Source: a virus
Direction: 5' to 3' (one strand)
IMG/VR virus record: IMGVR_UViG_3300037838_000105
Span: 1-32,954 of that record
Length of the DNA stretch: 32,954 nt
Every line of letters starts with the position of its first letter. Within the stretch, counting starts at the first letter, position 1. The notes below the pieces were generated by a model that saw only the letters and a list, made by a program, of their open reading frames with translations, searched no databases and had not been told where the DNA came from. Shown piece after piece: positions 3,425 to 31,933 of the stretch. Made by a program: the position numbers and the translations under genes.

Positions 3425-4669
3425 TTAATTAAATTGCTCTTCTTCTGTAGAACCTTCTAGAGCACTCAACGTATTACTTCCTGTAACAACTTTTGCTATC
3501 TCATCGAAGTATCCTGCACCCACTTCTCTCTGGTGCTTAACTGCTGTGAATCCATCGGCTTGTGACACAAACTCTTTCTGCTGTAGTTCAACGAACGCGG
3601 TCATGCCAGTCTCTTTGTATTTTTTAGACAGATCAAACATGCTATGGTTCAGCGAATGAAATCCTGCAAGTGTGATAAATTGAAACTTACAACCAATCTC
3701 TCCTAGCTCATCTTTGAAACTTCTTATTTGTGTGTCTGTTAGTTTAGCCTTCCAGTTAAATGACGGAGAACAGTTGTAAGCGAACATCTTGTTTGGAAAC
3801 TTCTTACGCACTTCTGTACAGAACTCTTTAGCTTCACCGATGTCTGGGTTACCTGTCTCCATCCATATTAGATCACAGTACGGTGCATACGCAAGTCCAC
3901 GTGCAATGGCCTGTTCCATACCAGCATTGGTCCTGTAGAACCCTTCTGCTGTACGTTCACCAGTTATGAATTTTTTATCTATATCGTCATGGTCGCTGGT
4001 AATCAAGTTACCCGCAAGTGAATCTGTCCTTGCTATAATAACAGTTGGTACACCCATCGTGTCCGCGGCCAGTCTTGCCGCTATCAGTTTCTGGACCATC
4101 TCAGAAGTCGGAACTAAAACCTTACCACCCATGTGTCCGCATTTCTTTGCAGATGACAGTTGATCCTCGAGGTGTATACCTGCCGCACCTTCCCTGATCA
4201 TGTGTTTGAATAATTCGTGTGTGTTCAGCACCCCACCGAACCCTGATTCGGCATCCGCGACTATTGGTAAGAAATAATCTGTGTCTCCTGTGCCCTCCAT
4301 TGTCTGTATCTGGTCTGCACGTATGAATGTGTTGTTGATCTTCTTGATAACGTTTGGTACGCTTTCGGTGTTGTACAACGACTGATCGGGATACATCTCA
4401 TCTGACGAGTTCGCATCTGCCGCCACTTGCCATCCAGAAAGATACACTGCATCTAGTCCGGCCTTGGCCTGTTGTAGTGCTTGGTTACCTGTGAGGGCAC
4501 CCAAGGCACTCACGTAAGGTAAGTTGTTTAACTTATCCCATAGTTTATTAGAGCCGTCCTCGGCCAGAGTGTACTTGATGTTTGCGGTACCGCTCAACCT
4601 CTTTACGTCCTCTTGCGAGTAAGGTCTAACAACGCCGTCCCATCTGTCGGAGTTCCAATCTATTGACAT
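3425..4669 (-). CDS. aceA: Isocitrate lyase
   Basis: A complete isocitrate lyase of 414 aa (E. coli AceA is 434). It cleaves isocitrate to glyoxylate and succinate, the first step of the glyoxylate bypass. Visible signature: KKCGHMGGK with catalytic Cys177, the metal-site stretches VADAESGFGG (137-146) and GIHLEDQ (164-170), ARTDS (213-217), WMETGNPD (269-276), NCSPSFNW (299-306) and TLAGFH (333-338). Nothing essential seems missing, so the enzyme is probably active. No malate synthase is present in the window. It follows a 54-aa gene by 11 bases and shares that gene's control region. There is no Shine-Dalgarno sequence before the ATG. In a phage this is an auxiliary metabolic gene that would redirect host carbon flow. 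Confidence 0.97.
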   Translation of the reverse strand: MSIDWNSDRWDGVVRPYSQEDVKRLSGTANIKYTLAEDGSNKLWDKLNNLPYVSALGALTGNQALQQAKAGLDAVYLSGWQVAADANSSDEMYPDQSLYNTESVPNVIKKINNTFIRADQIQTMEGTGDTDYFLPIVADAESGFGGVLNTHELFKHMIREGAAGIHLEDQLSSAKKCGHMGGKVLVPTSEMVQKLIAARLAADTMGVPTVIIARTDSLAGNLITSDHDDIDKKFITGERTAEGFYRTNAGMEQAIARGLAYAPYCDLIWMETGNPDIGEAKEFCTEVRKKFPNKMFAYNCSPSFNWKAKLTDTQIRSFKDELGEIGCKFQFITLAGFHSLNHSMFDLSKKYKETGMTAFVELQQKEFVSQADGFTAVKHQREVGAGYFDEIAKVVTGSNTLSALEGSTEEEQFN

Positions 4670-6195: not shown

Positions 6196-6254
6196 CCTAA
6201 TACTTATTCTACCACACTTCTGGTAGTTGATCTTTACAAAATTTACAAACTGTG

Positions 6255-6416
6255 TTACTTGAGGTAAGGACCTTTTGCTTTTGACGTGGTCCTCAGACGT
6301 TTTACTTTGACGTACTTCTTACTGCCAAGTTTGTAGATAGTGGGTTTAGGTGGTTCATATGATTCAAACGTTTTTTGCACGTACGCCTCGAACCATCCTC
6401 TGAGTCTTGCAAACAT
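6255..6416 (-). CDS. Hypothetical small basic protein (53 aa)
   Basis: The protein reads MFARLRGWFEAYVQKTFESY, then EPPKPTIYKLGSKKYVKVKR and a 13-residue basic tail ending GPYLK. It has an amphipathic N-terminal helix followed by a short, probably beta, basic segment. It is the intact member of a family whose truncated copy lies at 5268-5420; conservation of the SYEPPKPTIYKLG core between the copies shows it is a real protein. No Shine-Dalgarno sequence is obvious. Binding to nucleic acid or to a membrane surface is possible from its charge only. Confidence 0.62.
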   Translation of the reverse strand: MFARLRGWFEAYVQKTFESYEPPKPTIYKLGSKKYVKVKRLRTTSKAKGPYLK

Positions 6417-6437
6417 ACTAAACCCTCCATCGCTATA

Positions 6438-6548
6438 TTATTTCTTCCAGAATTTTAGTTTCTCGATGTGTCCCGGTATTGCTTCGAACTTCTCATTCAC
6501 ATACCAACCAGCCGCGAAACCAACTATTAATCCAATTGTTAAAAACAT
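6438..6548 (-). CDS. Small membrane protein (36 aa)
   Basis: The protein has one glycine-rich transmembrane helix (MFLTIGLIVGFAAGWYVNEK) and an amphipathic tail (FEAIPGHIEKLKFWKK). A strong ribosome binding site AAGGAGC lies five bases before the ATG. It follows the 40-aa gene by 10 bases and belongs to the same leftward operon. A GxxxG-like spacing in the helix could allow dimer formation. The function is unknown. Confidence 0.68.
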   Translation of the reverse strand: MFLTIGLIVGFAAGWYVNEKFEAIPGHIEKLKFWKK

Positions 6549-6558
6549 TTGGTGCTCC

Positions 6559-6681
6559 TTATTGTGCTTCTACTGGTGCAGGTTCGTTTGTGATTAGTAT
6601 CCATGCGAATACCACAACAACAACAGCAACACCAATCATTGCTTTTTTATGCTTCTTAATTTCGTCAATTACTTTTTTCAT
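6559..6681 (-). CDS. Leader-like membrane peptide resembling the porin signal region (40 aa)
   Basis: Residues 9-40 read KKHKKAMIGVAVVVVVFAWI, then LITNEPAPVEAQ. The porin encoded at 12626-13564 starts with TKKKAAIGVAIIVALVAIWS, then VMKPAPAEAAE, so the basic start, hydrophobic core, Trp and PAPxEA end all correspond. The difference is that this protein stops where the porin's mature part would begin. A strong ribosome binding site (GGAGGG, six bases before the ATG) argues it is translated. It may be a remnant of a lost secreted protein, a membrane peptide in its own right, or a decoy for signal peptide handling. Confidence 0.68.
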   Translation of the reverse strand: MKKVIDEIKKHKKAMIGVAVVVVVFAWILITNEPAPVEAQ

Positions 6682-6706
6682 TGTACGCCCTCCTAGGAGG
6701 TAACCG

Positions 6707-6714
6707 TATTTATC
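6707..6714 (-). promoter_or_regulatory. T4-type late promoter element, GATAAATA
   Basis: On the minus strand GATAAATA matches the T4 late promoter TATAAATA in seven of eight bases. It lies 25 bases before the start codon at 6681 and overlaps the end of the lipoprotein gene. It would drive the small membrane genes at 6681-6255 late in infection. Confidence 0.4.
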
Positions 6715-7000
6715 TGTCTAGTTTCTGTTCTTCCTGTCGTTTCTTCAATGGACAGTCGTCTGGTGCGAACATACAGCCAAGCACATCCACTATGCTCTCG
6801 AAGTTGGTAGGGCCATTAGGATTCAATAGTTCCTTCTCTTTGTCCATTGCATCCATGTCCTTGGTTATTTCAGCATTCATCTCTTGTTCTGTCTCGTGTG
6901 GTGATTGCCTGTCCACGTGTTGGCCAGGATTGCATGAAGAAAGGCCCACGAGGACTATCACTAGGAATATTATCATGTACCACTCTAACTTTTTATTCAT
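6710..7000 (-). CDS. Small lipoprotein (96 aa)
   Basis: The N-terminus MNKKLEWYMIIFLVIVLVGL followed by SSCN is a classic lipoprotein signal with lipobox LSSC, so Cys23 would be lipidated after signal peptidase II cleavage. The mature part is charged and helical (QEMNAEITKDMDAMDKEKELL) and has two further cysteines in GCMFAPDDCPLKK, which may form a disulfide in the periplasm. Phage lipoproteins commonly act as outer spanins or in superinfection exclusion; the size would fit either. No inner spanin partner is evident nearby. Confidence 0.78.
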   Translation of the reverse strand: MNKKLEWYMIIFLVIVLVGLSSCNPGQHVDRQSPHETEQEMNAEITKDMDAMDKEKELLNPNGPTNFESIVDVLGCMFAPDDCPLKKRQEEQKLDR

Positions 7001-7048
7001 ACTGATTATTTACACCGATAACCTAGAATGCTATATGGTGCTTTTGTC

Positions 7049-7231
7049 TTATTGGAATTTGTTGGCGTTAGTGGCAACCTTGCCAGTATTGGCACCGTTC
7101 TTTATCACATACTTCTGTGTGCCGTTGGCACCCGAGTCTACTTCTGTACGTAGGTGCTTGAACATCAACTTCTGTTTGGCCTCACGTAACATCTTCTGAG
7201 CGTATGCTGTTATTGTTTTTGTGTCTCTCAT
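7049..7231 (-). CDS. Hypothetical small protein (60 aa)
   Basis: Not recognised. The N-terminal half is an amphipathic basic helix (MRDTKTITAYAQKMLREAKQ, then KLMFKHL), and the C-terminal half is Gly/Asn/Thr-rich with a likely short beta segment (TQKYVIKNGANTGKVATNANKF). Start ATG at 7231; there is no strong ribosome binding site. A late-type promoter element lies 17 bases upstream of the start codon, suggesting expression with virion genes. It is the first gene of a leftward group that continues to 5464. Confidence 0.6.
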   Translation of the reverse strand: MRDTKTITAYAQKMLREAKQKLMFKHLRTEVDSGANGTQKYVIKNGANTGKVATNANKFQ

Positions 7232-7248
7232 AACTTTATTATATAGAT

Positions 7249-7256
7249 TATTTATG
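7249..7256 (-). promoter_or_regulatory. T4-type late promoter element, CATAAATA
   Basis: The minus strand reads CATAAATA, one mismatch from the T4 late consensus, 17 bases before the ATG at 7231. No -35 box would be expected for such a promoter. Positions 7257-7400 contain no gene or repeat that I can recognise. Confidence 0.45.
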
Positions 7257-7404
7257 TGTTGTCAACATACCTGGCCTGCATTTAGAACATAGCACATAAT
7301 GGTAATATGTGCAAATATACAGTTACTCCTGGATAGCCTTTACCATGCGTGTGTGTGCTTCTGTGTGCGTTTAACAGGTAGACTAGAACAGGTTTATCGT
7401 GTAA

Positions 7405-7410
7405 TATAAT
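7405..7410 (+). promoter_or_regulatory. -10 box TATAAT of the tRNA cluster
   Basis: TATAAT lies nine bases before the first base of tRNA-Thr. No good -35 box is visible at the usual distance. Its position makes it the likely promoter of the four-tRNA transcript. Confidence 0.5.
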
Positions 7411-7419
7411 TACTGTGAC

Positions 7420-7495
7420 GCCGCTTTAGCTCATTAGGTAGAGCAACTGATTTGTAATCAGTAGGTGCCCAGTTCGAATCCGGGAAGCGGCACCA
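7420..7495 (+). tRNA. tRNA-Thr (TGT anticodon)
   Basis: The 76-base gene has paired acceptor arms GCCGCTT and AAGCGGC, a D-arm (AGCTCATTAGGTAGAGC), an anticodon stem CTGAT/ATCAG with TGT in the loop, and a TTCGAATC T-arm. The 3' CCA (7493-7495) is encoded. It reads ACA and related Thr codons. Confidence 0.95.
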
Positions 7496-7500
7496 CAAAT

Positions 7501-7561
7501 ACCAAACTCACCGTTATTACCATTTACACCTAAACAGTCAATGGTCTCAGCAGAGTTTGGT
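7501..7561 (+). other. Inverted repeat in the tRNA-Thr to tRNA-Ala spacer
   Basis: ACCAAACTC (7501-7509) pairs perfectly with GAGTTTGGT (7553-7561), and within this CCATT (7520-7524) pairs with AATGG (7540-7544). The spacer of the tRNA precursor would fold into a long interrupted hairpin. It may guide processing or be a small RNA; no terminator-like T run follows. Confidence 0.5.
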
Positions 7562-7567
7562 CGGTTT

Positions 7568-7643
7568 GGGGGATTAGCTCATCTGGGAGAGCGCCTGATT
7601 TGCATTCAGGAGGTAGCAGGTTCGATCCCTGTATCCTCCACCA
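7568..7643 (+). tRNA. tRNA-Ala (TGC anticodon)
   Basis: Acceptor arms GGGGGAT and ATCCTCC pair with one G-T wobble. The anticodon stem CCTGA/TCAGG encloses TTTGCAT, giving anticodon TGC. The T-arm has GTTCGATCC. CCA is encoded at 7641-7643. The spacer to the next tRNA is three bases. Confidence 0.95.
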
Positions 7644-7646
7644 AAC

Positions 7647-7721
7647 GGTCCCTTCGTCTATCGGTTAGGACACGTGGTTTTCATCCTCGAAAGAGGGGTT
7701 CGACTCCCCTAGGGACCGCCA
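7647..7721 (+). tRNA. tRNA-Glu (TTC anticodon)
   Basis: The 75-base gene has acceptor arms GGTCCCT and AGGGACC, anticodon loop TTTTCAT with anticodon TTC, and a T-arm GGGGTTCGACTCCCC. CCA is encoded at 7719-7721. The anticodon stem CGTGG/CCTCG has one T-T mismatch, which may be compensated or tolerated. Confidence 0.93.
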
Positions 7722-7730
7722 GACAAAATT

Positions 7731-7807
7731 GTGCCCGTAGTTCAGTTGGATAGAATACGAGTTTCCTAAACTTGGGGTCGGAGGTTCGAATCCTTCCGGG
7801 CACGCCA
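7731..7807 (+). tRNA. tRNA-Arg (CCT anticodon)
   Basis: The 77-base gene has acceptor arms GTGCCCG and CGGGCAC, anticodon stem CGAGT/ACTTG around TTCCTAA, giving CCT (reads AGG), and a T-arm GGAGGTTCGAATCCTTCC. CCA is encoded at 7805-7807. AGG Arg codons are frequent in several genes of this window, such as clpP and the radical SAM genes, which fits a supplementing role. Confidence 0.94.
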
Positions 7808-7827
7808 AACACCACATAATTAATTGT

Positions 7828-8130
7828 GTGAAGAAGTTCTATTCCATAAAGTTGAAACAGTTCAAGGAGAACATACCGCCAGCACTTGCAGAAACAATGT
7901 TGTTGGACGAATCCAAACTTGTCAAGTACCTGTGGAAACACAAGGCACTTGAGTTCAGGTATCCCAAACACAAACACAGACTAGATCTATACGCAGACGA
8001 GAAGTATCTCATGATGGGCAAGTTGAAGTACCCAACAATGTTCGGCAACAAGAAAAGGATGGGCTTCATGGAACTCTACATAGTTCACAGGATCAACCAG
8101 AGGATGAACCTGGCAAGGGGTAGTAAATGA
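7828..8130 (+). CDS. Hypothetical basic protein (100 aa), GTG start
   Basis: Not recognised. The product is strongly basic, rich in Lys and aromatic residues (KKFYSIKLKQFKENIPPALA, WKHKALEFRYPKHKHRLDLY) with no membrane segment. A GTG start at 7828 gives the best N-terminus; no ATG is available near the beginning and no clear ribosome binding site is visible. Its stop overlaps the start of the SGNH gene by ATGA, so the two are translationally coupled. It lies directly after the tRNA cluster and could be on the same transcript. Confidence 0.65.
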   Translation: MKKFYSIKLKQFKENIPPALAETMLLDESKLVKYLWKHKALEFRYPKHKHRLDLYADEKYLMMGKLKYPTMFGNKKRMGFMELYIVHRINQRMNLARGSK

Positions 8131-8807
8131 TAAAGTTTGGTCATTACACAGACAGGGGCCTGCCGGAGTCCGAAGTAGGGTATAGATGTCCTAGTTGGGA
8201 TCCAATGCCTTCGGGAAAGAAGAATGTTATAGTTCTCGGATGCAGTCATACCTACGGGGTAGGTCATGATGACAACACACACTGGGTCGCTCACCTTTCG
8301 AAGCACAACACTACACGTTTAAGGTATTGGAATCTAGCACAACCTGGATGTAGTGCCGACAAGATGATTCGCATACTGTACGGGTCGGAAAAACTCCTAG
8401 AGCCAAGAATAATCATTGCCTGCTGGCCGTTGTGGAGTCGTAGAGAACGGTTGGAAACAGATCCTATAAGTCTTACATCGGGTGATCGGTATCTGAAGAT
8501 GGAAACAGAAGAAACCGATCGGAATAACTTTTTGAAAAATATTTTCCTACTACAAAAGTTTGCCGAGCAAAAAGGCTGTAGTACATTCCATTGCTTTGCT
8601 GATGAGACTTATCAAGAGCACATCGGGGAGTTGAACATACTAAAAGATTATACAATAAGGAACTGCTGGCCACACTGGGACAAATTTACAGCAAGAAACT
8701 TACACGCTAAGCCAAGCCTGGCCTCAGATGGCGAGCACTATGGTGTAGAACATCATGAACGTTTTGCTAAACTATTCCTTGATCATTTTTCTAAGAAATT
8801 AAAATAA
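8127..8807 (+). CDS. SGNH/GDSL-family hydrolase-like protein
   Basis: The 226-aa product has a block I motif VLGCSHTYGVG (Ser40 the likely nucleophile), a possible block II in NLAQPGCSADKMIR, and near the C-terminus SDGEHYGVEHHERFA, where Asp201 and His204 fit the catalytic DxxH of block V. The related GCSHTYG-type proteins are, from memory, common in marine T4-like phages. The substrate is unknown; sugar or lipid acyl esters are usual for the fold. It overlaps the preceding gene by four bases, and its last 25 bases overlap the convergent radical SAM gene. Confidence 0.8.
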   Translation: MIKFGHYTDRGLPESEVGYRCPSWDPMPSGKKNVIVLGCSHTYGVGHDDNTHWVAHLSKHNTTRLRYWNLAQPGCSADKMIRILYGSEKLLEPRIIIACWPLWSRRERLETDPISLTSGDRYLKMETEETDRNNFLKNIFLLQKFAEQKGCSTFHCFADETYQEHIGELNILKDYTIRNCWPHWDKFTARNLHAKPSLASDGEHYGVEHHERFAKLFLDHFSKKLK

Positions 8808-9778
8808 TCTTTTATACTAATCTTACGTAACGCATCTTGCCTGGTGATAAAATCTTCTAGTTCTTTATCATTGTTTCTATCCACTGCTATTTCTTTAGGA
8901 GACATGCTCTTGGCCAATCTTGTAAACTTATTATCGTACTTTACGTTTAACACGCTGGGTTGTTCCAGGAACGCCCAATCGTGTGGTATGTTCTTGTTCT
9001 TGGCAAAGTTTACTATGTCAGGTAGTATTTTTATGTTTAGACAACTCACTGTGGTCCAGAAATTTAGTTGCAACAGTTTGTATTGTTTCTGCAGAGCAAG
9101 ATAGGCATCCACAGTTTTCTTGTAGTTGTCCCACTTGATAGGCCAACGTGCATAGTCATGCACTTGACCGATTCCGTCCAAGCTCATTGTCACTATGACC
9201 ATTATGTTTCTCTTCAACACATCCTCTATCTCTGGGATCATTCTAGACCCGTTGGTGTTCATCCGTACTATCTTCACATTCTCCGGTAGTGCCTTTAAAA
9301 CCTTTTTGTAGTTCTTGCTGGCAGTGGGCTCGCCACCGTTCACATCGAATTCAATTATCCTTTCCTGTGGCAACTTCTTGAACACTTCGTAGTTGTCAAC
9401 ACGTGGATAGTCTCTGGATTCCAGGCTCCCTATCTTTGTGCTGAGTCCGGCATGGCACGACTGGCAGGCACTGTTGCACACATTATCCAACACGCCTCCC
9501 ACTATCAAGTAGTCCTTGCGTATAGGATGTAACATCTTGTGTCTGACTATGCTGTTGGTACGTATGCTTTCACCCTTGACCTTCTCCGACCTCTGACACC
9601 TGAAACATTCCATGGGCCATTGCCCTTGGTCCATTGTGGCACGGACGTTTGCCATCCAATCGCTGTGTTCCAATTCTTCGTGACTGGCAAATCCCTTCGC
9701 ATGTATCATGTGCCCACACTTGCCCACAGAACCGTCTTGGTTAAGTCTTATAAAGTGATCTAGCCTAGGACAGAACAT
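8783..9778 (-). CDS. Radical SAM enzyme with N-terminal twitch/SPASM-like cysteines
   Basis: The 331-aa protein holds the radical SAM cluster motif CNSACQSC (Cys101, 105, 108; CX3CX2C) and a GGEP-type SAM-binding motif (FDVNGGEPTASKNY). The ~90 residues before the core carry extra cysteines (Cys3, 21, 58 and 61, the last two in CFRC), which look like an auxiliary iron-sulfur cluster domain placed N-terminal instead of C-terminal. Such enzymes start radical chemistry on peptides, sugars or other substrates. It is the last gene of a leftward unit with the dehydrogenase and sulfotransferase-like genes, overlapping the latter by 14 bases. The substrate is not predictable from the sequence. Confidence 0.88.
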   Translation of the reverse strand: MFCPRLDHFIRLNQDGSVGKCGHMIHAKGFASHEELEHSDWMANVRATMDQGQWPMECFRCQRSEKVKGESIRTNSIVRHKMLHPIRKDYLIVGGVLDNVCNSACQSCHAGLSTKIGSLESRDYPRVDNYEVFKKLPQERIIEFDVNGGEPTASKNYKKVLKALPENVKIVRMNTNGSRMIPEIEDVLKRNIMVIVTMSLDGIGQVHDYARWPIKWDNYKKTVDAYLALQKQYKLLQLNFWTTVSCLNIKILPDIVNFAKNKNIPHDWAFLEQPSVLNVKYDNKFTRLAKSMSPKEIAVDRNNDKELEDFITRQDALRKISIKDYFNFLEK

Positions 9779-10289
9779 TTTTATATCTTTCCACTATGTG
9801 TTGTAACTTTTGTGTGTGCCCGAGTTGTTCTAATAGTCTGTGATCGACATCAACAAACTCTGCAACAGTGTCCACTATCGTTTTGGACCTGTTACGATGA
9901 TTATGATTGTCACAGTAATCACTTATGGCATCCAGTGGTTTCAATGTCACTGTGCCCTTAAAGAATCTGTACAAGTGGCACAGCCACACGTACTGTGGAA
10001 CAATATGTCTGTCCACAAGATTTCCTTCCTTCACTAGGTGATGAACTTCTGGTACTGTGATATTGTTTTGACTGCTGTACACGTTGATGCCCGACACGAA
10101 ACGTTCGTTGGGGTTCCTGATAATGATATCTATGTGATCGAGTGCATTGATTTCCTCGTTGGTGTAACTCCTGTCACTGGCACGTCTCAAACTTGTTGAA
10201 CCACTGACATAGATAGGATAAACTAATCTCTCACCTATTCCTATCACAACACAGTCTGTGTTCAGCAGTTTACTCCAGTGTTTCAGCAT
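9765..10289 (-). CDS. Sulfotransferase-like protein (174 aa)
   Basis: Residues 55-69 (IIIRNPNERFVSGIN) match the 3'-phosphate binding motif of PAPS-dependent sulfotransferases (IRDPxERFxSGY type). Residues 25-35 (PIYVSGSTSLR) look like a degenerate 5'-phosphosulfate loop (PKxGSTSL) in which the usual Lys is not present. The protein is shorter than typical sulfotransferases (250-300 aa). It may therefore be a reduced or altered member. It lies between the short-chain dehydrogenase and radical SAM genes, overlapping both. Sulfation of a glycan or small molecule is a possible role. Confidence 0.6.
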   Translation of the reverse strand: MLKHWSKLLNTDCVVIGIGERLVYPIYVSGSTSLRRASDRSYTNEEINALDHIDIIIRNPNERFVSGINVYSSQNNITVPEVHHLVKEGNLVDRHIVPQYVWLCHLYRFFKGTVTLKPLDAISDYCDNHNHRNRSKTIVDTVAEFVDVDHRLLEQLGHTQKLQHIVERYKNVLS

Positions 10290-10779
10290 AGTGTTCCTTC
10301 AACACACTACCCACGTAGTGGTTAACGTCCATACCTCCCTTTCCTTGTGTGTTGATCATTCCCGGACGTATAAGTTTCATCTTTGTGTTGCTTGCCTGTG
10401 CATTGAGTTGTTTGTGTGCAAGTTCCAATGCCATTTTTTGATTGCGGTATTGCATTGCCTCACGCATGGATAACCCGTCTATTTGTCGGTCCTCTGCGTT
10501 CTCACACACCTTTGTAGATATATTCCAAATGTGATGCATTTCTTTGTCCTCCTGCCACCTGTGCCATACTTCGAACAGTAGTTCAGTCTGTGCGTACATG
10601 CTTATGGCATTGTTTATGAAAAGGTCACAGGGCTCAATTATAGATGCCGTGTGTGCTGTCCTCCTAATGTTCTCTCCGTCGCTCCTAGAAATACCAACTA
10701 TCTCGTGTCCTTTGGCCGATAGTTGTTCGGCGAACGCTTTGCCAATTCCTTTCTTGTGCCCAGTAATTGCTATTTTCAT
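10270..10779 (-). CDS. Short-chain dehydrogenase/reductase family protein (169 aa)
   Basis: The N-terminus MKIAITGHKKGIGKAFAEQL has the TGxxxGIG dinucleotide-binding motif (residues 6-13). FINNA is the conserved NNA motif, ISTK may provide the catalytic Ser, and YRNQK is the YxxxK catalytic pair. At 169 aa it is much shorter than classical SDRs (about 250), lacking part of the central Rossmann strands and the substrate region; the substrate is unknown. It is the first gene of the leftward unit, and its start faces the 2OG oxygenase gene across a 25-base gap containing a symmetrical late-promoter-like element. Confidence 0.8.
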   Translation of the reverse strand: MKIAITGHKKGIGKAFAEQLSAKGHEIVGISRSDGENIRRTAHTASIIEPCDLFINNAISMYAQTELLFEVWHRWQEDKEMHHIWNISTKVCENAEDRQIDGLSMREAMQYRNQKMALELAHKQLNAQASNTKMKLIRPGMINTQGKGGMDVNHYVGSVLKEHYAETLE

Positions 10780-10788
10780 ATGAAACAG

Positions 10789-10798
10789 TATTTAAATA
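10789..10798. promoter_or_regulatory. Symmetrical late-promoter-like element, TATTTAAATA
   Basis: The perfect 10-base palindrome TATTTAAATA gives TTTAAATA on each strand, one mismatch from the T4 late consensus TATAAATA. It sits between divergent starts at 10779 (minus) and 10805 (plus). The sequence around it (ACAGTATTTA) also occurs at the divergent pair at 17645-17654. Confidence 0.45.
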
Positions 10799-10804
10799 AG
10801 CATA

Positions 10805-11287
10805 ATGAAGTCTTATCACATATTGGATTGCGACAAGCAACAGAAGATAGCAGACAGCCTTTACGGTTATTACGTGGGGATAACAGCCAACAGAGAACTA
10901 AAAGATTTTTGGAACAATCTATCGAGGAAAGAAATACAAGACTATTTCTCAATACCAAACAATCCTTGCAAAGAATGGTTTGATAGTCTAGGACTAAAAG
11001 TCAGAGACATGAGTTTCACTATCTACAATGAAGAAATAATCACACACATACACAAGGACGACCCTCCAGTGATAGCAAAGATAAACTTTCCCGTGTTGAA
11101 CACAAAGGATACCTACAATATTTGGTTCGATGACTACGCCAGGGAGATAGACAGGGTGGAGTGTGATAGGCCGATAGTGTTGCGTAGTGATATACTACAC
11201 ACGGTAGAGATAGGCAAGTCTGCCACATACCCTAGGTTGCAGTTCAGTTTCTGTTTCTACAACGAGCCTCTTCAGTTATTAAAGTAG
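10805..11287 (+). CDS. 2-oxoglutarate/Fe(II)-dependent oxygenase-like protein (160 aa)
   Basis: The facial triad and 2OG-binding residues are visible: HKD (His83, Asp85), His132 in SDILHTVEIG and Arg144 in YPRLQFSFCFY. The sequence between them has the alternating beta-strand pattern of a double-stranded beta-helix (AKINFPVLN, YNIWFDD, RPIVLRSD). Such enzymes hydroxylate or otherwise oxidise proteins, nucleotides, lipids or sugars. At 160 aa it is a compact version. Its last 44 bases overlap the end of the convergent radical SAM gene. Together with its neighbours it suggests a small tailoring pathway. Confidence 0.75.
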   Translation: MKSYHILDCDKQQKIADSLYGYYVGITANRELKDFWNNLSRKEIQDYFSIPNNPCKEWFDSLGLKVRDMSFTIYNEEIITHIHKDDPPVIAKINFPVLNTKDTYNIWFDDYAREIDRVECDRPIVLRSDILHTVEIGKSATYPRLQFSFCFYNEPLQLLK

Positions 11288-12284
11288 GACACTCAATAAA
11301 CCTGTCGTTGTCACGTGCTTGTATCCTATCAATGACCATGTCTATCTGTGTCTTGTATTCTGGTGTGTTCCATATGTCTTGTGTTTTGAAGTCGTCTGTC
11401 GTCCCCCAGTCCTCTATCTTGTTCAGCCATACTCTGTCAGCACCGTACTGCTCTCCCAGGTCGATCATCTGTTGCATCTCATGATAGTTGTCCTTTTGTA
11501 CTACGAAATGCAATATGAATCCGAATCCGTGCTTCTCCTTCTGTTCCGCCATGCATTCCAGGCCTTCCAACATCTTCTCCCAACGGCCACCTAGCCTCAG
11601 TTTCTCATATGTCTCTGGACTGGCCCCGTCTATGCTCACTCCCAACTCATTAAGATTGCTGATGACATATGGCACCCTGGTGTGGAACTCCTTGAACATC
11701 AATCCGTTGGTCAGTATGCTGTACCTTATGTTCTTCCTCTCGGGTGTATGTTCCATGAAGTGCCTGTACACGTGTGAGGCGAACGGATCACCGTCAGATC
11801 CTATGTGCACCTGCATGGGGTGTTCGTAACTGTGCAACCAGTCATTTATCCTGTCAGCGAGGCGTATGCCCAGGTTGTATGCGGAACCCTCCTTGTGGAA
11901 TATCAGTCCCTTCCTACAACTGGGACATCTGAGATTACAACTGTCGTCTATGGCCAGCCTGAGGTGTTTGATGTGATCGGCCTTGTGGTCCATCATGTCT
12001 CCCCCACGTATGTACGGACATTGGTGTTCATTGCAGTAACGGTATGTGCCATCGGTGATGCTGTCCTGCATCTGTCGACGCATGTCGCCACCGATGATAT
12101 CATCTAGTGATTTTATCTGTAGGTTGCCTATGCTCTGCGGTAGCCAACTGGTGCATTCGCAGGCGTAACAAGATCCTTGCTTGTCTATCAGCACAGTGTC
12201 GAAGGGCCGTGAGCATATGGTCTGGATCTTGAGGTCCTTCTGGGTGTTGATGCCGTAGTGGTCGAACAGTCTCTGGTTTATCAT
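11244..12284 (-). CDS. Radical SAM enzyme with N-terminal SPASM-like domain
   Basis: This 346-aa protein has the cluster motif CNLRCPSC (Cys116, 120, 123). The N-terminal 100 residues hold many cysteines (Cys24, 39, 42, 44, 84, 89) in a SPASM-like arrangement (SCYACEC...YCNEHQCPYIRGG). The second motif is SDGDPFAS instead of GGEP. Later motifs (LTNGLMF, ISNLNELGVSIDGASPETYEKLR) are typical of the family and resemble enzymes acting on peptides or sugars. It is distinct from the 8783-9778 enzyme. It overlaps the preceding small gene by ATGA and is driven by the promoter at 12501-12473. Codons are GC-richer than in the SGNH gene at 8127. Confidence 0.9.
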   Translation of the reverse strand: MINQRLFDHYGINTQKDLKIQTICSRPFDTVLIDKQGSCYACECTSWLPQSIGNLQIKSLDDIIGGDMRRQMQDSITDGTYRYCNEHQCPYIRGGDMMDHKADHIKHLRLAIDDSCNLRCPSCRKGLIFHKEGSAYNLGIRLADRINDWLHSYEHPMQVHIGSDGDPFASHVYRHFMEHTPERKNIRYSILTNGLMFKEFHTRVPYVISNLNELGVSIDGASPETYEKLRLGGRWEKMLEGLECMAEQKEKHGFGFILHFVVQKDNYHEMQQMIDLGEQYGADRVWLNKIEDWGTTDDFKTQDIWNTPEYKTQIDMVIDRIQARDNDRFIECPTLITEEARCRNRN

Positions 12285-12448
12285 TTGTCGGGGTCTGTGA
12301 TCATGTCCAGCGTGAGCGGCCGGGTCTCGTCCGGTTCCTGTTCCGGCATCTCCTGTGGCTTCTTCCTCAGCCTACGCTGTTCCCGTTCATGCTGTTTCTG
12401 TAATTTCTTTGCACCCCTGGTGTTCTTGTAGTCGTAGTGTATGCCCAT
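12281..12448 (-). CDS. Hypothetical charged small protein (55 aa)
   Basis: Not recognised. The product (MGIHYDYKNTRGAKKLQKQH, then EREQRRLRKKPQ) has a basic helical first half and an acidic Pro-rich second half (EMPEQEPDETRPLTLDMITD). An excellent ribosome binding site AAAGGAGG lies just upstream of the ATG. The stop overlaps the start of the radical SAM gene by four bases (ATGA). Because small genes next to SPASM-type radical SAM genes are sometimes peptide substrates, this deserves attention, although it has no cysteine and no obvious core-peptide motif. Confidence 0.75.
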   Translation of the reverse strand: MGIHYDYKNTRGAKKLQKQHEREQRRLRKKPQEMPEQEPDETRPLTLDMITDPDK

Positions 12449-12472
12449 CGTGAACCTCCTTTGCTACTCGTA

Positions 12473-12501
12473 ATTATATACGCAAACGACGTTGGTGTAA
12501 A
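12473..12501 (-). promoter_or_regulatory. Sigma70-type promoter TTTACA-N17-TATAAT
   Basis: On the minus strand TTTACA (12501-12496) and TATAAT (12478-12473) have a 17-base spacer. It lies 25 bases before the ATG at 12448 and should drive the 55-aa and radical SAM genes leftward. Confidence 0.72.
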
Positions 12502-12566
12502 CTATTTTGGTAAAAAAAGTTGCACTTAATGGTTGCATTTTGAATAAATATGTCTTACAATCCAGA

Positions 12567-12589
12567 GCGATTGCTAGGCCAGTAATCGC
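12567..12589 (+). promoter_or_regulatory. Hairpin in the porin 5' leader
   Basis: GCGATT (12567-12572) pairs with AATCGC (12584-12589) around an 11-base loop. It lies 36 bases before the porin ATG. AATAAATA (12543-12550) just upstream is one mismatch plus from a T4 late element and may be the promoter, which would put the hairpin in the mRNA leader. AGGAG (12609-12613) is the ribosome binding site. Confidence 0.4.
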
Positions 12590-12625
12590 ACATTAATCAT
12601 ATAGATCACAGGAGAAAATCAATCT

Positions 12626-13564
12626 ATGAAAATGACTAAGAAAAAAGCGGCGATAGGTGTAGCGATTATAGTAGCACTTGTAGCCATATGGTCGGTTATG
12701 AAACCGGCACCGGCTGAAGCGGCCGAAATGAAAGTTTATGGTTCATTGAACTACATGCTTTCAAACAATGAGAATGCTTCAGGCGTGGCAACATCGAAAG
12801 CGGAGAACAACGGTTCTTCAATTGGTGTTGACTTAACAAGCCCACTATCAGAGGGTGTCGACGGCTTCGCGAAGTTAGAAGTTGAAATCGATGCGGATGA
12901 CTCTGGTTCTTCACCATTTGATTCAAAACTAGCATACGCTGGGATTGACATGGGTGACGCAGGTGTGCTATCAGCAGGAAGACAGAACTCTGTGTTTAAG
13001 GGTGCTGTTACATCTAAGACGGATGTGTTCCCAGAATACGGCGGAAGTGCCGCACAGAAATTGTTCAGCAGAGATTCACACACAGTGACTTACTCTAACA
13101 GTTTAGGTGCTATCCAGTTCGACAACTTGATCAAAGTTGACGGCACAACTGGTAAATCGGGCGTTGACGTGTACGAGACTGCGGCCACTATGGACTTATC
13201 TGATTCACTAAACATCGGTGTTGCATACACGGATGACAAAGTGAACGCAGTAGAGTACAAGGGTGCAGGTGTCACGTTTGACATTTCTGATGCTACATCT
13301 ATCGGTTACAACCATACAAGAAAAGAAGTAGAGTCTACTAAACTAGAAACTACTGCTAACGAAGTAGTTGCTTCACACCTAATCGGTGCAACAACTATCT
13401 CAGTTGGTTATGGTGAGATCGAGGATGGTAACAAATACACTACAGTTGGTGCCGAGAAGAAGATCGGTGAGAGCTTTAGTTTATATGGTGCTTTCCAACA
13501 AACTGACGTGCCTACAGGTGTAGACACACAAGACGCGGCCGCTGGAATCAAATTTACATTCTAG
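12626..13564 (+). CDS. Outer-membrane porin (Gram-negative porin type)
   Basis: The 312-aa product begins with a Sec signal peptide (basic MKMTKKK, hydrophobic IGVAIIVALVAIWSV, then PAPAEA with cleavage near residue 32). The mature part starts MKVYGSLNYML, a typical first porin strand, continues with alternating amphipathic strands and short acidic loops, and ends in AAGIKFTF; a terminal Phe preceded by alternating hydrophobic residues is the BAM recognition signal. It would form an outer-membrane beta-barrel, probably a trimer of about 14-16 strands. It stands alone between divergent or convergent operons and has its own leader and terminator. The predicted barrel has many Asp/Glu, suggesting cation preference. 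It could change permeability or receptor availability of infected cells. Confidence 0.88.
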   Translation: MKMTKKKAAIGVAIIVALVAIWSVMKPAPAEAAEMKVYGSLNYMLSNNENASGVATSKAENNGSSIGVDLTSPLSEGVDGFAKLEVEIDADDSGSSPFDSKLAYAGIDMGDAGVLSAGRQNSVFKGAVTSKTDVFPEYGGSAAQKLFSRDSHTVTYSNSLGAIQFDNLIKVDGTTGKSGVDVYETAATMDLSDSLNIGVAYTDDKVNAVEYKGAGVTFDISDATSIGYNHTRKEVESTKLETTANEVVASHLIGATTISVGYGEIEDGNKYTTVGAEKKIGESFSLYGAFQQTDVPTGVDTQDAAAGIKFTF

Positions 13565-13605
13565 TTCGCTAACACTGTGGAGTCGGTCAGCTCAAAGAAG
13601 GGCAG

Positions 13606-13677
13606 GCCGGCTTTACGCTTTTTAACGCTTCGCGTTATTTCTTAACTTACGCTATTTTTGGTAATTTACGCTTTACG
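13606..13677. repeat. TTACGCT short direct repeats around the porin terminator
   Basis: TTTACGCT or TTACGCT recurs near 13612, 13646 and 13666, with a related TTTACGCAC at the end, in the 100-base gap between the convergent porin and FkbM genes. The last copies run into the 3' codons of the FkbM gene. Confidence 0.4.
13623..13637. terminator. Stem-loop terminator between convergent genes
   Basis: TAACGC-TTC-GCGTTA forms a 6-bp stem with a three-base loop. TTTCTT follows on the plus strand, and on the minus strand the stem is followed by AAAAGC, so it works better for the porin transcript. Confidence 0.6.
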
Positions 13678-14331
13678 CACTTTCTTAAAAACGACTTCTT
13701 TCTTTCGAGATCTGCCGTACTCTTTGTAACCCACACTTGACAGGAAGTCAATGATCTCTGTGGCACGCTTTTTGTGTCCTTCGTTCTTGTGTTCTATTTC
13801 TACATTCAGTACAGCGTCGTTGTTGATCAGTGTTTGTTCGCCGCCTAACAGTATATCGTATTCACTGCCCTGTGTGTCGATCTTGATGAGATCTACATTG
13901 GTCAGTTTATAATCATCAAGTCTTTTGATGGGTAATGTTGTCTTGCCGACAGCACTTTCAAAGATTTGATCCCTATAAAAACTATGGCCACCTGACGTAG
14001 TCAATGATGTGTAGAATTCTCGTGTTTCCTCTTTGCTTCCTAGTCCCACTTCGTGTAATGCGAAGTTAGAATGCATTTTCAAATTTTCTTTCAAGCATTC
14101 TATGTTCGATGCCTCGGGCTCAAAAATTATTACATTATTGAATTGTTCACAGAAATCTCTGCTCCAGAAACCAATGTTGCCGCCTATGTCGACCGCTGTA
14201 CGGAAATGTTTTACTTGTTTGAGTGCATACTCTCTTTGTAGTCTTTGATAATTCTTTTCATTATTAGTGATCATCCATTGCTCATAATGACTATCATACT
14301 CTGGAAGAAACCAATCATGTACTTTTTTCAT
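13666..14331 (-). CDS. FkbM-family SAM-dependent methyltransferase
   Basis: The 221-aa protein has the class I methyltransferase motif I AVDIGGNIGFWSRDF, the acidic loop IIFEPEASNIECLKENL, the family-typical LHEVGLGSKEE and the LIKIDTQGSEYDILLGG motif of the FkbM group. These enzymes O-methylate sugars or other small hydroxyl groups. Its start overlaps the stop of gp41 by one base (TAATG), so it is co-expressed with replication genes, an odd place for a glycan enzyme. Its C-terminus is very basic (RSRKKEVVFKKVRKA). Confidence 0.88.
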   Translation of the reverse strand: MKKVHDWFLPEYDSHYEQWMITNNEKNYQRLQREYALKQVKHFRTAVDIGGNIGFWSRDFCEQFNNVIIFEPEASNIECLKENLKMHSNFALHEVGLGSKEETREFYTSLTTSGGHSFYRDQIFESAVGKTTLPIKRLDDYKLTNVDLIKIDTQGSEYDILLGGEQTLINNDAVLNVEIEHKNEGHKKRATEIIDFLSSVGYKEYGRSRKKEVVFKKVRKA

Positions 14332-15809
14332 TATTGTTCTTCATCAGAATGCAACTCGTTCAACAGTTGTCTCAGTTTACCGCCTTCTACTGTGGCCTTT
14401 ACTTTGACTCCCAGTGCATCGCCCTTACGAGGATCCGGCACTTCTGTTCTTGCATCTGTGGACGCATCACCACCAGTTACTTTGGATGTTTGTTTCAGTG
14501 AATCGTAAATCTTGTTCTTGCCCTGTTGATTGTAACTCTGTGATTCTTCCTCATCCAGACTCCTAATTCTTAGACTGTCTACGTCAAACTCTAAATCTAC
14601 TTTCTGTCCAACACCAGAACTCGATCTAGTCTTCATGAACTGTATCTGGTATCTGCCACGTTCCTTCATTGCTCTCGATGTGAATATACCTATCACGTTG
14701 TCTGCCGTCTGTATCTTTGATAGTCCGCCTGAGATGTGACTGTGATCAAATTCTATTTCTTCAACACTTGCTCTGTTCAACTGTGATGCTGTTGCCAACA
14801 CACACTGTTTCTCAACAACCAAGTTTCTAAGTTCCTCTGAGACATATTTGTCTTTGATAAACAAGTCTGCTGGTGATATCCTTTTGCTCTTTGGCATCAT
14901 GAGATCCAAGTAGTCGATCAATATACAATCTATTTTCTTTTTGTTCTTTAGTTCTAGTTCCTTGAGATATGTCCTTACGTCTAGCACATTACTACCACTT
15001 GGCAAGTATTTGATCTGCAGGTTACCTGATTTCTTCTTCAACATCTTGACCTTCATCTCGACATTATCAATTTCAGGGAATACTTTTCTTGTAGGAATAT
15101 TTGTCATCATTGCATCCAGTCTCATGGCTGTAAGTTGTTCACTCAATTCAAAAGATATGTAGCACACGTTCAGTCCGGCCTGTGCCCAGTTAACTGCGAG
15201 ATTCTGCAAGAACAAACTCTTACCTGCACCTGAACCACCTGCAAATATGTTCAGTTCTCCTCTGTTGAATCCACCAAACAGTTTCTTGTCTAGGTTCTGC
15301 CAGCCTGTGCTGATCTGTCCGTTATTGTCTTTTAATGCTTCAAGTCTTCCTCGAGGATCTTCGAAGTAGTCTGTTCCAAGATCTCTTGTGAGTCCTACGC
15401 TGACTGCTTCTTTGACCATGTCTTCTACAGGAGCATAATCTCCCTTCTCTAAAAGATCAGCAGATGAAAGTATTGCTTGTTCTAGTGCCTTGTGTCTTGA
15501 GAATGTTTCGAATTCATCTAGCAACCAATTGAAGTGTGCTGGATCTAGATCCTTTGCTGTTTTTAATTGTATGTCGTGTTGTGCATTGACTATCTCAACC
15601 TCTGGCATCACTTTGTACTCGTCCATGTAATCCTTGACAAACTTTGCAATAGGTTGCAATTTACGATCAAAAGATCCAGGATTGAATATGTTTTGTGCTC
15701 TAGCAAATGATTCAGCATCTGCTAACAACATCTCAATGTACAATTTCTGCACATCGAAAGAATAATCTTTAGCCCGGTGTTGTGGTTCGTTGTTATTGTA
15801 ATCAGCCAT
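14331..15809 (-). CDS. 41: Replicative DNA helicase, T4 gp41-like (DnaB type)
   Basis: The 492-aa protein has an N-terminal helical domain and a RecA-type core: Walker A GGSGAGKS (about residue 185), Walker B CILIDYLDLM, and SQLNRASVEE and FMKTRSSSGVG motifs typical of DnaB/gp41 hexameric helicases. T4 gp41 is 475 aa. It unwinds DNA 5' to 3' on the lagging strand and works with the gp61 primase, whose gene overlaps its start by eight bases. The C-terminal 60 residues are polar and probably flexible, as in relatives. Confidence 0.96.
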   Translation of the reverse strand: MADYNNNEPQHRAKDYSFDVQKLYIEMLLADAESFARAQNIFNPGSFDRKLQPIAKFVKDYMDEYKVMPEVEIVNAQHDIQLKTAKDLDPAHFNWLLDEFETFSRHKALEQAILSSADLLEKGDYAPVEDMVKEAVSVGLTRDLGTDYFEDPRGRLEALKDNNGQISTGWQNLDKKLFGGFNRGELNIFAGGSGAGKSLFLQNLAVNWAQAGLNVCYISFELSEQLTAMRLDAMMTNIPTRKVFPEIDNVEMKVKMLKKKSGNLQIKYLPSGSNVLDVRTYLKELELKNKKKIDCILIDYLDLMMPKSKRISPADLFIKDKYVSEELRNLVVEKQCVLATASQLNRASVEEIEFDHSHISGGLSKIQTADNVIGIFTSRAMKERGRYQIQFMKTRSSSGVGQKVDLEFDVDSLRIRSLDEEESQSYNQQGKNKIYDSLKQTSKVTGGDASTDARTEVPDPRKGDALGVKVKATVEGGKLRQLLNELHSDEEQ

Positions 15810-26636: not shown

Positions 26637-28265
26637 CTACCTGGTCATGTTGTACTTTTTAATCCAATCGGCCACAATCATTGTTGGAATACTTGCCTTG
26701 CCTGTTTTGTTCCACCAATGTTGTAGTGGCACAGTCCATCCTGTCTTCATCTTATTGACAATAACATCTGGTAATAATCCTTTGTATGCAACCTTGGTCA
26801 AAAGTTTAGTATCGCTTTTTGTTTCGCCTATCTTCTCGTCACTATGAATGTCCATGCAGTACTGCATGAAAGTTTTCGTCGCTAAAGGAAAACGTCCTTC
26901 CATGCTGTAAGCCATTCCATACTTGTCGTTCCTCATTAAAAATTCTTCAGGAACCTGTGCAACACAATCCAGTGCCATGTAAGAACCTATGGGGTCATCC
27001 GGGTTCCAAAGATCGTCTGGATAGCATTTTAAAAGTTCATCACGTAATCTTCCTTTGTCATAAACCTTGATTGGTCTCTTGATACGGTTGATCCATTTAT
27101 CTATTATGTCCGACCAACTTTTGAATTGTTCTTTTCTTAATTTCCAATATTTTGGATAGCCGCCCAAAACCTCGTCCCCCATGTCGCCTGCCATTGTGAC
27201 TACTATACCATTACTATGTAATACTTTATTAGTGTAGCAATACATCGATAAGCTCGGATTATACACAGGTTGCTCGATGTAATATATAGAATCATCCCAG
27301 TATTGTTTTGCAATCTCAGGCGTAATAGTTACTTCTGTATGGTTGAAGTTATTGGCATCCGCTAATACCTTGGCACAGTCGGCATCCTCATTATGATCGC
27401 CGTCCTTTGGGTGAATGTAGTTTGGTTCCATCCTGTTAGTGAAAGTGTTGGCATGGCCTAATACGTTCTTAAGTTCATAAGCAACTATGCCGGAATCAAG
27501 TCCGCCACTCAAGAATACTCCAATTTTTCTCCTGCCAATACTTGCCATTTTTATAGACTTTTGTGCCATCTTTCTAAATTCTTCAGCATTAAATTTTTTG
27601 TTTGAATTTGGTTTTATGAATATCCTTTTTGTTTTCACTAACGTTTTGTTGTCCAAGCCATATACAATAGTTTCACCTGCAAGTAATTTTTTTATTCCTG
27701 TGAAAAAAGTATTACGTAATGGATTAATACCGGTTGTGGTCATACAACCTACTGCAAGTTCGTCCTGCTTCCTACTCCCGGGTACTTTATCTAACATTCC
27801 TTTTATCTCTGATCCAAACACCAGTCCTTCTTTTATCAATGCGTAGTAGACAGGTTTAACGCCTGCGTGATCTCTACTCAAAGTCAATGTATTCTTATCA
27901 ACCTCGTAGTATGCAAAGCCGTGCATTGAGTCTATCTCGTCGATAAATGACAATCCAAACTTATCCAATCCCCAAGCAAGTAGTTCGGTGTCACAACCTG
28001 AGGTGTCTGTGAACTCTTTATACTTTTCCTTCAATTCGTAGTAGTTGAAGATTTCTCCATTGTAAACAAGTTTGTTTCCTTTGGGGGTTGTCCATGGTTG
28101 TGTCGCATTGCCTGGTTCACCCATTATACTCAACAAGTTATGACCTAATGTTATCTTATCGTTGTGCCATATGCTTGAACCGTCCGGGCCTCTGTGTTTG
28201 CAAACTTCTATGAATTGTTTTATGAATTCCGGATTATATTCGGTTATGCCGTATATGCCACACAT
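26637..28265 (-). CDS. asnB: Asparagine synthase (glutamine-hydrolysing)
   Basis: The 542-aa protein starts with Cys2 (MCGIYGITEYN), the amidotransferase nucleophile, followed by CKHRGPDGS and the glutaminase domain (VYNGEIFNYYELKEKY). The synthetase domain carries the PP-loop FLSGGLDSGIVAYE and MAGDMGDEVLGGYPKYW. E. coli AsnB is 554 aa. In a glycan cluster such enzymes often amidate uronic acids or other sugars rather than make free Asn. It overlaps the preceding gene by one base. All catalytic motifs are intact. Confidence 0.95.
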   Translation of the reverse strand: MCGIYGITEYNPEFIKQFIEVCKHRGPDGSSIWHNDKITLGHNLLSIMGEPGNATQPWTTPKGNKLVYNGEIFNYYELKEKYKEFTDTSGCDTELLAWGLDKFGLSFIDEIDSMHGFAYYEVDKNTLTLSRDHAGVKPVYYALIKEGLVFGSEIKGMLDKVPGSRKQDELAVGCMTTTGINPLRNTFFTGIKKLLAGETIVYGLDNKTLVKTKRIFIKPNSNKKFNAEEFRKMAQKSIKMASIGRRKIGVFLSGGLDSGIVAYELKNVLGHANTFTNRMEPNYIHPKDGDHNEDADCAKVLADANNFNHTEVTITPEIAKQYWDDSIYYIEQPVYNPSLSMYCYTNKVLHSNGIVVTMAGDMGDEVLGGYPKYWKLRKEQFKSWSDIIDKWINRIKRPIKVYDKGRLRDELLKCYPDDLWNPDDPIGSYMALDCVAQVPEEFLMRNDKYGMAYSMEGRFPLATKTFMQYCMDIHSDEKIGETKSDTKLLTKVAYKGLLPDVIVNKMKTGWTVPLQHWWNKTGKASIPTMIVADWIKKYNMTR

Positions 28266-31020: not shown

Positions 31021-31040
31021 TTAATGTAATTATGTCTGCT

Positions 31041-31931: not shown

Positions 31932-31933
31932 TG

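Follow-up and report, generated by a model that had tools for sequence, protein, structure and literature searches.

A mobile module of radical SAM, sulfotransferase-like and SDR genes in uncultured aquatic T4-like phages, with a possible role in carbohydrate tailoring

Introduction

Do genes for unlike tailoring enzymes that lie side by side in a phage genome form one pathway, or are they neighbours by chance? The question was raised by a region of the IMG/VR virus record IMGVR_UViG_3300037838_000105 (here the window, i.e., the whole stretch of 32,954 nucleotides that was analysed), for which an initial annotation had proposed six enzymes, all overlapping or coupled, that would together make or decorate a molecule, and a 55-aa open reading frame as a possible substrate. 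All of these genes were found in the window (Table 1).

Table 1. Genes of the region studied, with positions in the window; module and frame are defined in the text.
Feature	Position	Strand	Description
g0	7828..8130	+	100 aa, GTG start, unassigned conserved protein; frame gene
SGNH-hydrolase-like protein (SGNH)	8127..8807	+	GCSHTxGxG ... DGxHYG; frame gene, one flank of the insertion site
rSAM1	8783..9778	-	Radical SAM enzyme, N-terminal twitch-like Cys motif; module gene 3
ST	9765..10289	-	Small sulfotransferase-like protein, 174 aa; module gene 2
mini-SDR (SDR)	10270..10779	-	169 aa, SDR motifs TGxxxGIG, NNA, YxxxK intact; module gene 1
2OG-Fe(II) oxygenase (2OG)	10805..11287	+	Compact, 160 aa; optional module gene
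rSAM2	11244..12284	-	Radical SAM, N-terminal SPASM domain; frame gene, other flank of the insertion site
p55	12281..12448	-	Charged 55-aa protein, ends MGIHYDYK... / ...TLDMITDP; frame gene

Results and discussion

Organization of the region

The block consists of genuine, intact genes that evolve under purifying selection, with dN/dS values of 0.04–0.23 in every comparison with unsaturated dS; for SDR and SGNH, dS was saturated in all pairs tried, so that the ratio was not computable, and dN was low against dS. Same-strand overlaps were found only at p55/rSAM2 (an ATGA overlap), SDR/ST (20 bp), ST/rSAM1 (14 bp) and g0/SGNH (4 bp), while rSAM2/2OG and rSAM1/SGNH overlap tail to tail. Several overlaps are present as claimed, but the region is divided into four convergent or divergent units, p55-rSAM2 (-), 2OG (+), SDR-ST-rSAM1 (-) and g0-SGNH (+), and is not one operon.

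Enzyme families

Both rSAM1 and rSAM2 can be assigned to the radical SAM superfamily by their PF04055 scores (34 and 38 bits, respectively; cut-off 29.5), and the Cys residues of the CX3CX2C motif were invariant in both alignments. In rSAM1 this motif (C101, C105, C108; 100% of 132 relatives) is preceded by twitch-like Cys residues at C3, C21, C58 and C61, conserved in 98–100% of the same relatives. The NCBIfam model NF033640 (N_Twi_rSAM, "twitch domain-containing radical SAM protein"), in which an N-terminal twitch/SPASM domain is followed by the radical SAM core as here, aligned to residues 2–286 of rSAM1 with 130 bits (137 bits for rSAM1 of locus L277), both under the cut-off of 170; rSAM3, a twitch radical SAM protein of relatives, passed it with 233–239 bits, and rSAM2 matched over the core only (36 bits). 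The SPASM model PF13186 matched residues 24–89 of rSAM2 with 26 bits (cut-off 21.5). The N-terminal position proposed for the SPASM-like domains is borne out by this match in rSAM2, and rSAM1 stays below the family cut-off. Relatives of rSAM2 were found in 63 distinct loci among the matches listed. Radical SAM genes are scattered through these phages.

No match was obtained for ST in an HMM search, and a sequence-profile search of PDB with ST and 2OG gave nothing useful. The AF2 model of ST (pLDDT 90) showed heparan sulfate 3-O- and N-sulfotransferases as the closest folds in VIA-align (Z 5.0–5.7 over about 135 residues, which is weak, below 8; best for the 3-O-sulfotransferases), with which ST, at only 174 aa, shares 11–15% identity. 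Every top rank was a sulfotransferase, and Foldseek gave E 8e-13 and TM 0.84 to a viral "Sulfotransferase family" model and a weak best PDB match (E 0.26). Residues R58, R63, H95, Q99 and D149 were present in 99–100% of 134 relatives. Most relatives have a 5'-PSB Lys (KNGxSSL) and some an Arg; in the window this Lys is replaced (YVSGSTSL), which makes sulfotransferase activity of this copy uncertain.

The window SDR scored above the PF01370 cut-off and fits the short-chain dehydrogenase/reductase motif set, with T6, G7, G11, I12, G13, N56, N57, A58, Y111 and K115 conserved in 99–100% of 132 relatives; the usual catalytic Ser is present in the window and absent in the copies examined from a second phage group (see below). 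For 2OG, the AF2 model (pLDDT 94) gave Foldseek E values below 1e-3 to 55 chains, nearly all those listed being 2OG enzymes, with the nucleoside-antibiotic hydroxylase 7v4f as the best match (E 7e-5) and PHD2 and KanJ also matched. The predicted fold and the HxD...H...R residues (H83, D85, H132 and R144, in 100% of 44 relatives) argue for a 2OG-Fe(II) oxygenase. The SGNH protein, which had no Pfam match above cut-off, was assigned from its motifs (S40 of block I, D201 and H204 of block V, invariant in 15 sequences) and one weak PDB match to a GDSL lipase (E 0.22). A relationship of SGNH to DUF6473, a neighbour of rSAM2 relatives in bacteria, was rejected (hhalign probability 0.7%, E 0.08). The identities of the module enzymes hold at family level, for ST as sulfotransferase-like, and the corresponding catalysis is presumed.

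SDR, ST and rSAM1 are gained and lost as one module

If the block were a chance neighbourhood, its genes should occur independently of each other in relatives. SDR, ST and rSAM1 did not, but were found to travel together: ST and the mini-SDR both lay beside rSAM1 in 156 of 156 distinct loci with enough flank, and a separate count found SDR beside rSAM1 in 107 of 107 loci, both among the matches listed (the locus scans covered the best 80 loci out of 490–579 confirmed relatives). In the lineage of the window, an SDR-(rSAM3)-ST-rSAM1 block is inserted between rSAM2 and SGNH. Among 48 distinct rSAM2-SGNH intervals listed, 25 contained all three genes, 20 none and 3 some; Fisher p values for the association between SDR, ST and rSAM1 were 1e-10 to 1e-12, which are rough since the loci are related and not independent. 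Parsimony on the rSAM2 tree gave five switches between full and empty intervals, with about 2–4 forced by well-supported branches.

The second phage group carries the set at another site, between gp32 and UvsX, in the order ST-rSAM1-(2OG)-SDR-rSAM3. When gp32-UvsX intervals were anchored on UvsX, which lies outside the module, 6 were full, 23 empty and 0 partial among the matches listed. The second-group module loci listed contained rSAM3 (67/67), UvsX (67/67) and gp32 (63/64). The 2OG gene lies on the same strand as SDR in these phages and on the opposite strand in the window. Gaps within the module are short or negative.

This all-or-none presence at two sites divides the six genes into two units. 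One is a mobile module, gained or lost whole, of SDR, ST and rSAM1, often with 2OG and usually with the twitch radical SAM gene rSAM3. The other is a lineage-specific frame (p55-rSAM2 ... SGNH), distinct from the module and without it in 19 of the 48 loci listed. The proposed six-gene block thus stood for SDR, ST and rSAM1, and for 2OG when present, and failed for rSAM2, p55 and SGNH. The window phage carries only part of the set, without the rSAM3 that is usual elsewhere. In hundreds of contigs from uncultured phages the set seems to be passed on as one unit, and it is very probable that the module is a single functional unit. A chance neighbourhood within a hypervariable region could be argued from the variability of the region, where locus L165 has a different rSAM/SGNH/2OG set, and from the scatter of radical SAM genes; the constant co-occurrence, the two genomic sites, the all-or-none presence and the tight spacing make it highly improbable.

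The frame and p55

SGNH was found in 46 of 48 rSAM2 loci among the matches listed, and g0 is conserved beside it in many relatives. For p55, 62 relatives were found in viral contigs among the matches listed, with dN/dS of 0.07–0.13. It adjoins rSAM2 in 43 of 48 complete loci listed, mostly with an overlapping start, and is absent there in 5. This linkage, the small size of p55, its two conserved ends and the fact that SPASM enzymes frequently act on peptides would suit a RiPP-like pathway in which rSAM2 (and the module) acts on p55 as the precursor peptide, in line with the substrate role suggested initially. However, p55 and rSAM2 were absent from eight module-bearing second-group records (43–145 kb), in which SGNH gave none but one weak match; p55 is therefore probably not the module substrate, and a dedicated precursor in every cluster, as expected of RiPP pathways, was not found. 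Besides, gaps within the module are mostly too small for a precursor gene, and p55 contains no Cys and no hypervariable core. It occurs without rSAM2 in L165, precedes other genes in L165 and L052/L145, and was not found at bacterial rSAM2 loci except for phage contig L166. A RiPP-like pathway is thus considered very unlikely.

Distribution and comparison with known systems

Over 500 relatives of the signature gene of the module were found in uncultured viral contigs, and the carriers are uncultured aquatic T4-like phages. No cultured carrier was found by tblastn against 50,697 phage records, in which rSAM1, rSAM2, SGNH and the rSAM1 and SDR of L277 were unmatched; the window SDR matched FabG-like proteins only (E 4e-3). 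This agrees with the earlier statement that no known phage pathway combines these activities. At E 1e-15, no rSAM1 was found in 398 Pseudomonadota and 392 Planctomycetota genomes, using a profile that does detect module-bearing viral records in a search that had no bacterial positive control. The operon was not described in the literature searched, with limited coverage of subscription papers and preprints.

Marine T4-like phages have been reported to carry radical SAM cassettes (PMC7029224, PMC5332604, PMC7150976); as here, variable regions of aquatic phages contain multiple radical SAM genes (up to 12 per genome) along with glycosyltransferases. The comparison was by description only, and gene order, sulfotransferase/SDR/2OG partners and all-or-none behaviour do not appear in the passages compared. 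The tailoring of aminoglycoside and nucleoside antibiotics (KanJ/KanK, BtrN, 7v4f) also shows some likeness, KanJ and 7v4f being among the 2OG fold matches. In KanJ/KanK and BtrN-type tailoring, 2OG or radical SAM oxidation is paired with a reductase, which is alike in outline. In contrast, the phage module is virus-borne, has a sulfotransferase-like partner and lacks scaffold-forming genes; the likeness is one of fold and outline.

Possible functions of the module

The best overall explanation is a mobile module that tailors a carbohydrate (probability roughly 0.5). The rSAM1 and rSAM3 enzymes would take hydrogen from a sugar carbon and thereby oxidise, epimerise or deoxygenate it, SDR would interconvert the resulting carbonyl and alcohol, 2OG would add or take away a hydroxyl, and ST would sulfate the product with host PAPS as donor. 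The target would most likely be a surface or phage-made glycan or a nucleotide-sugar precursor, giving a changed cell envelope or virion glycan; in the lineage of the window, the module is inserted between SGNH-g0 and the p55-rSAM2 pair resident there. A carbohydrate substrate is about an even bet, and an altered cell surface as the purpose of the module is suggested tentatively.

Several observations point to a carbohydrate: the predicted fold of ST is nearest to heparan sulfate sulfotransferases, the aminoglycoside dioxygenase KanJ is among the matches to the modelled 2OG, GDP-mannose-dehydratase-type genes were present in 7 of 13 records tested, window included, and a GT61 glycosyltransferase lies in the window. 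Twitch/SPASM enzymes that act on sugars are known, for instance BtrN. In addition, glycosyltransferases lead among the neighbours of bacterial rSAM2 relatives (14 GT2 and 9 GT1 matches among 107 proteins), these being loci of rSAM2 relatives and not of the module itself. Against a carbohydrate speak the weak fold match of ST and its replaced 5'-PSB Lys in the window, the second-group location between DNA replication/recombination genes and not in a glycan cluster, and SkfB, a peptide-modifying enzyme, as the solved structure nearest to rSAM1 by sequence.

The gp32-UvsX location, the nucleoside-antibiotic hydroxylase as top structural match of 2OG and the existence of phages with hypermodification pathways would also fit hypermodification of a DNA base, nucleotide or nucleoside. 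However, hydroxymethylated bases usually derive from a thymidylate-synthase-family enzyme, which was present in 0 of 13 records, all possibly fragments; related phages usually lack the module at this site, and ST resembles glycan sulfotransferases. This reading is considered improbable. Somewhat less improbable, though still unlikely, is a module that makes or alters a non-glycan small molecule (lipid, cofactor or signalling nucleotide), for instance against host defence. Radical SAM, SDR, 2OG and sulfotransferase enzymes are commonly combined in small-molecule biosynthesis, and patchy all-or-none presence would suit a host-dependent weapon or counter-defence; against this, no carrier, condensation, transport or resistance genes were seen in the module, and nothing positive indicates any particular molecule.

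A more far-reaching and less likely possibility is a virus-specific pathway without cellular counterpart, whose evolution or persistence is confined to uncultured phages. Its operon of five enzymes (a sulfotransferase, an SDR, 2OG and two radical SAM enzymes of the twitch type) would make a sulfated, radically modified molecule not known from cells.

The radical SAM genes of aquatic phages have so far been counted without an explanation, and a module in which the partners are fixed turns them into a testable biochemical question. It raises the question of what phages produce by combining radical chemistry with sulfate, and how such products may affect host range, superinfection and defence. 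The all-or-none insertion at two sites provides natural pairs of phages with and without the module.

Genes and Their Identities

The 33-kb virus record, from a T4-like phage, encodes DnaB, a primase, a phage DNA helicase and a head maturation protease, and its DnaB was found to be closest (48–53%) to those of large phages of the PA5oct, Atu_ph07 and Phosso types. All seven ORFs described in the initial annotation were recovered at their positions. Family searches supported both radical SAM enzymes (rSAM1 and rSAM2), the N-terminal SPASM domain for one of the two, and the mini short-chain dehydrogenase (SDR). Structure prediction backed the 2OG-Fe(II) oxygenase (2OG) and, more weakly, the sulfotransferase fold of the small sulfotransferase-like protein (ST), and the SGNH hydrolase assignment is based on motifs plus a weak GDSL match. 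dN/dS was 0.04–0.23 where dS was unsaturated; for SDR and SGNH, dS was saturated in every pair tried. The genes had been described as all overlapping or coupled, but they form four short units on both strands.

Other features of the window and of related loci (–, reverse strand; +, forward strand)
Record	Positions	Strand	Feature
Window	3425–4669	–	Isocitrate lyase (Pfam ICL, E 3.7e-105); central-metabolism gene, unusual for a phage
Window	7420–7807	+	Four-tRNA array (Thr, Ala, Glu, Arg) adjoining SGNH and g0, the gene overlapping it
Window	12626–13564	+	Porin-like outer-membrane protein (Porin_1, E 5.9e-10); kept beside p55 in many relatives
Window	26637–32830	–	Sugar/glycan-type genes: asparagine synthase-like, GDP-mannose 4,6-dehydratase, GT61 glycosyltransferase; several genes without Pfam match
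L165 (sister phage, p55 locus)	6250–14955		Different set, named by reading sequences: twitch radical SAM genes, another radical SAM gene with C-terminal Cys domain, aminotransferase-, ferredoxin-reductase-, SGNH- and 2OG-oxygenase-like genes
L025	9100–10005		Extra radical SAM-like gene directly upstream of DnaB, 23% identical to rSAM2
L041	9103–10008		As in L025
L166	4146–10055		Porticoccaceae MAG contig with phage cassette
L208	3198–11992		Clostridial MAG contig; six tandem rSAM2-like genes, most sharing an N-terminal extension

A Module Present as a Whole or Not at All

Scans of IMG/VR with rSAM2, rSAM1, DnaB and p55 (the 55-aa gene beside rSAM2) gave many contigs of the window's lineage; DnaB lies outside the block, so the contigs found with it were not selected by the block. 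The loci are fragments, the best 80 of each scan, in which homologues were called by profiles built in the present analysis and near-copies were merged according to sequence rather than population. Once near-identical rSAM2 genes had been merged, 48 distinct loci extended as far as the next landmark; 46 of them contained SGNH and 43 p55. SDR, ST and rSAM1 were all present in 25/48, all absent in 20/48 and partly present in three (L012, L022, and L131), two rSAM1 calls beyond SGNH having been set to absent by hand; Fisher p-values for co-presence of block genes treat related loci as independent. 2OG was found in 19/48 loci, each of which also had ST and rSAM1. In loci lacking the block, rSAM2 and SGNH usually adjoined, SGNH starting about 1 kb past the end of p55. 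Full and empty loci were mixed in the rSAM2 tree, which is only partly resolved, with five changes by parsimony; its starred branches force two to four.

A scan with the SDR alignment gave 80 best loci, about 60 of them outside this lineage (SDR identity 44–55%). In this second group the order is ST-rSAM1-(2OG)-SDR-rSAM3 in one direction, a permutation of the SDR-(rSAM3)-ST-rSAM1 order of the window's lineage; rSAM3 is a twitch radical SAM enzyme absent from the window. In L286 and L277, gp32 (named from sequence) directly precedes the module and UvsX (named also from phage matches) directly follows it. Two further scans with rSAM1 profiles gave, after merging of near-copies, 156 distinct loci with enough flank; second-group loci among them contained gp32 in 63/64, UvsX in 67/67 and rSAM3 in 67/67 cases. 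Since this set had been picked by module genes, a further scan was anchored on UvsX, outside the module: among 29 loci with enough upstream sequence, six had the full module, 23 none and none a part, with empty gp32–UvsX gaps down to 62 bp. Together with the counts in the window's lineage, this shows all-or-none presence of the module in both phage groups, each with its own insertion site.

Extent of the Module and the Role of p55

Independent occurrence in relatives, which would point to a chance neighborhood, was not borne out for ST and SDR, both found with rSAM1 in 156/156 loci, but was seen for the flanking frame (p55-rSAM2 and SGNH) versus the module, the frame standing alone in 19 loci of the window's lineage. 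The proposed six-gene pathway is thus narrowed to SDR, ST, rSAM1, often 2OG and usually rSAM3, with p55, rSAM2 and SGNH separate. In eight second-group records of 43–145 kb, rSAM2 gave only weak cross-matches, p55 was not found, and SGNH was not found except for one weak match. The suggestion that p55 is the pathway substrate is made unlikely by its absence from these module-bearing records and beside rSAM2 in several loci, although it is conserved; in L165 and L052/L145 it stands before other genes. Gaps inside the module are mostly short and would hardly accommodate a precursor peptide gene, but this argument is not absolute, as the rSAM1–2OG gap, measured between profile ends, exceeded 150 bp in 26/56 cases.

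Predicted Chemistry and Target

SDR, 2OG and both radical SAM enzymes of the module had nearly invariant catalytic residues in relatives and are therefore probably active. The 5′-PSB lysine of ST, present in most relatives, was missing from the window (YVSGSTSL), where ST may be altered or may lack activity. The enzyme combination suggests radical C–H chemistry, carbonyl/alcohol interconversion, hydroxylation and sulfation, all putatively on one scaffold. The site between gp32 and UvsX is suggestive of DNA as target, but a thymidylate-synthase-family gene was not found in 13 records, which are possibly partial. A carbohydrate target is favored by the fold neighbors of ST, by KanJ among the structural matches of 2OG, by genes of the GDP-mannose-dehydratase type in the window and other carriers and, for the frame and not the module, by glycosyltransferase-rich neighborhoods of bacterial rSAM2 relatives.

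Distribution

Radical SAM genes, some of them in cassettes within variable islands, have already been described for marine T4-like phages (PMC5332604, PMC7029224, PMC7150976). One bacterial MAG locus (L166) carries the whole cassette; it looks like a phage contig, either mis-binned or a weak hint of the host. No account of the module operon was found in a literature search outside which most subscription papers and preprints lay. Searches of 50,697 phage records gave no match for the module, and at E 1e-15 no relative of rSAM1 was found among 790 bacterial genomes; on these results, a virus-specific pathway is a fair possibility.
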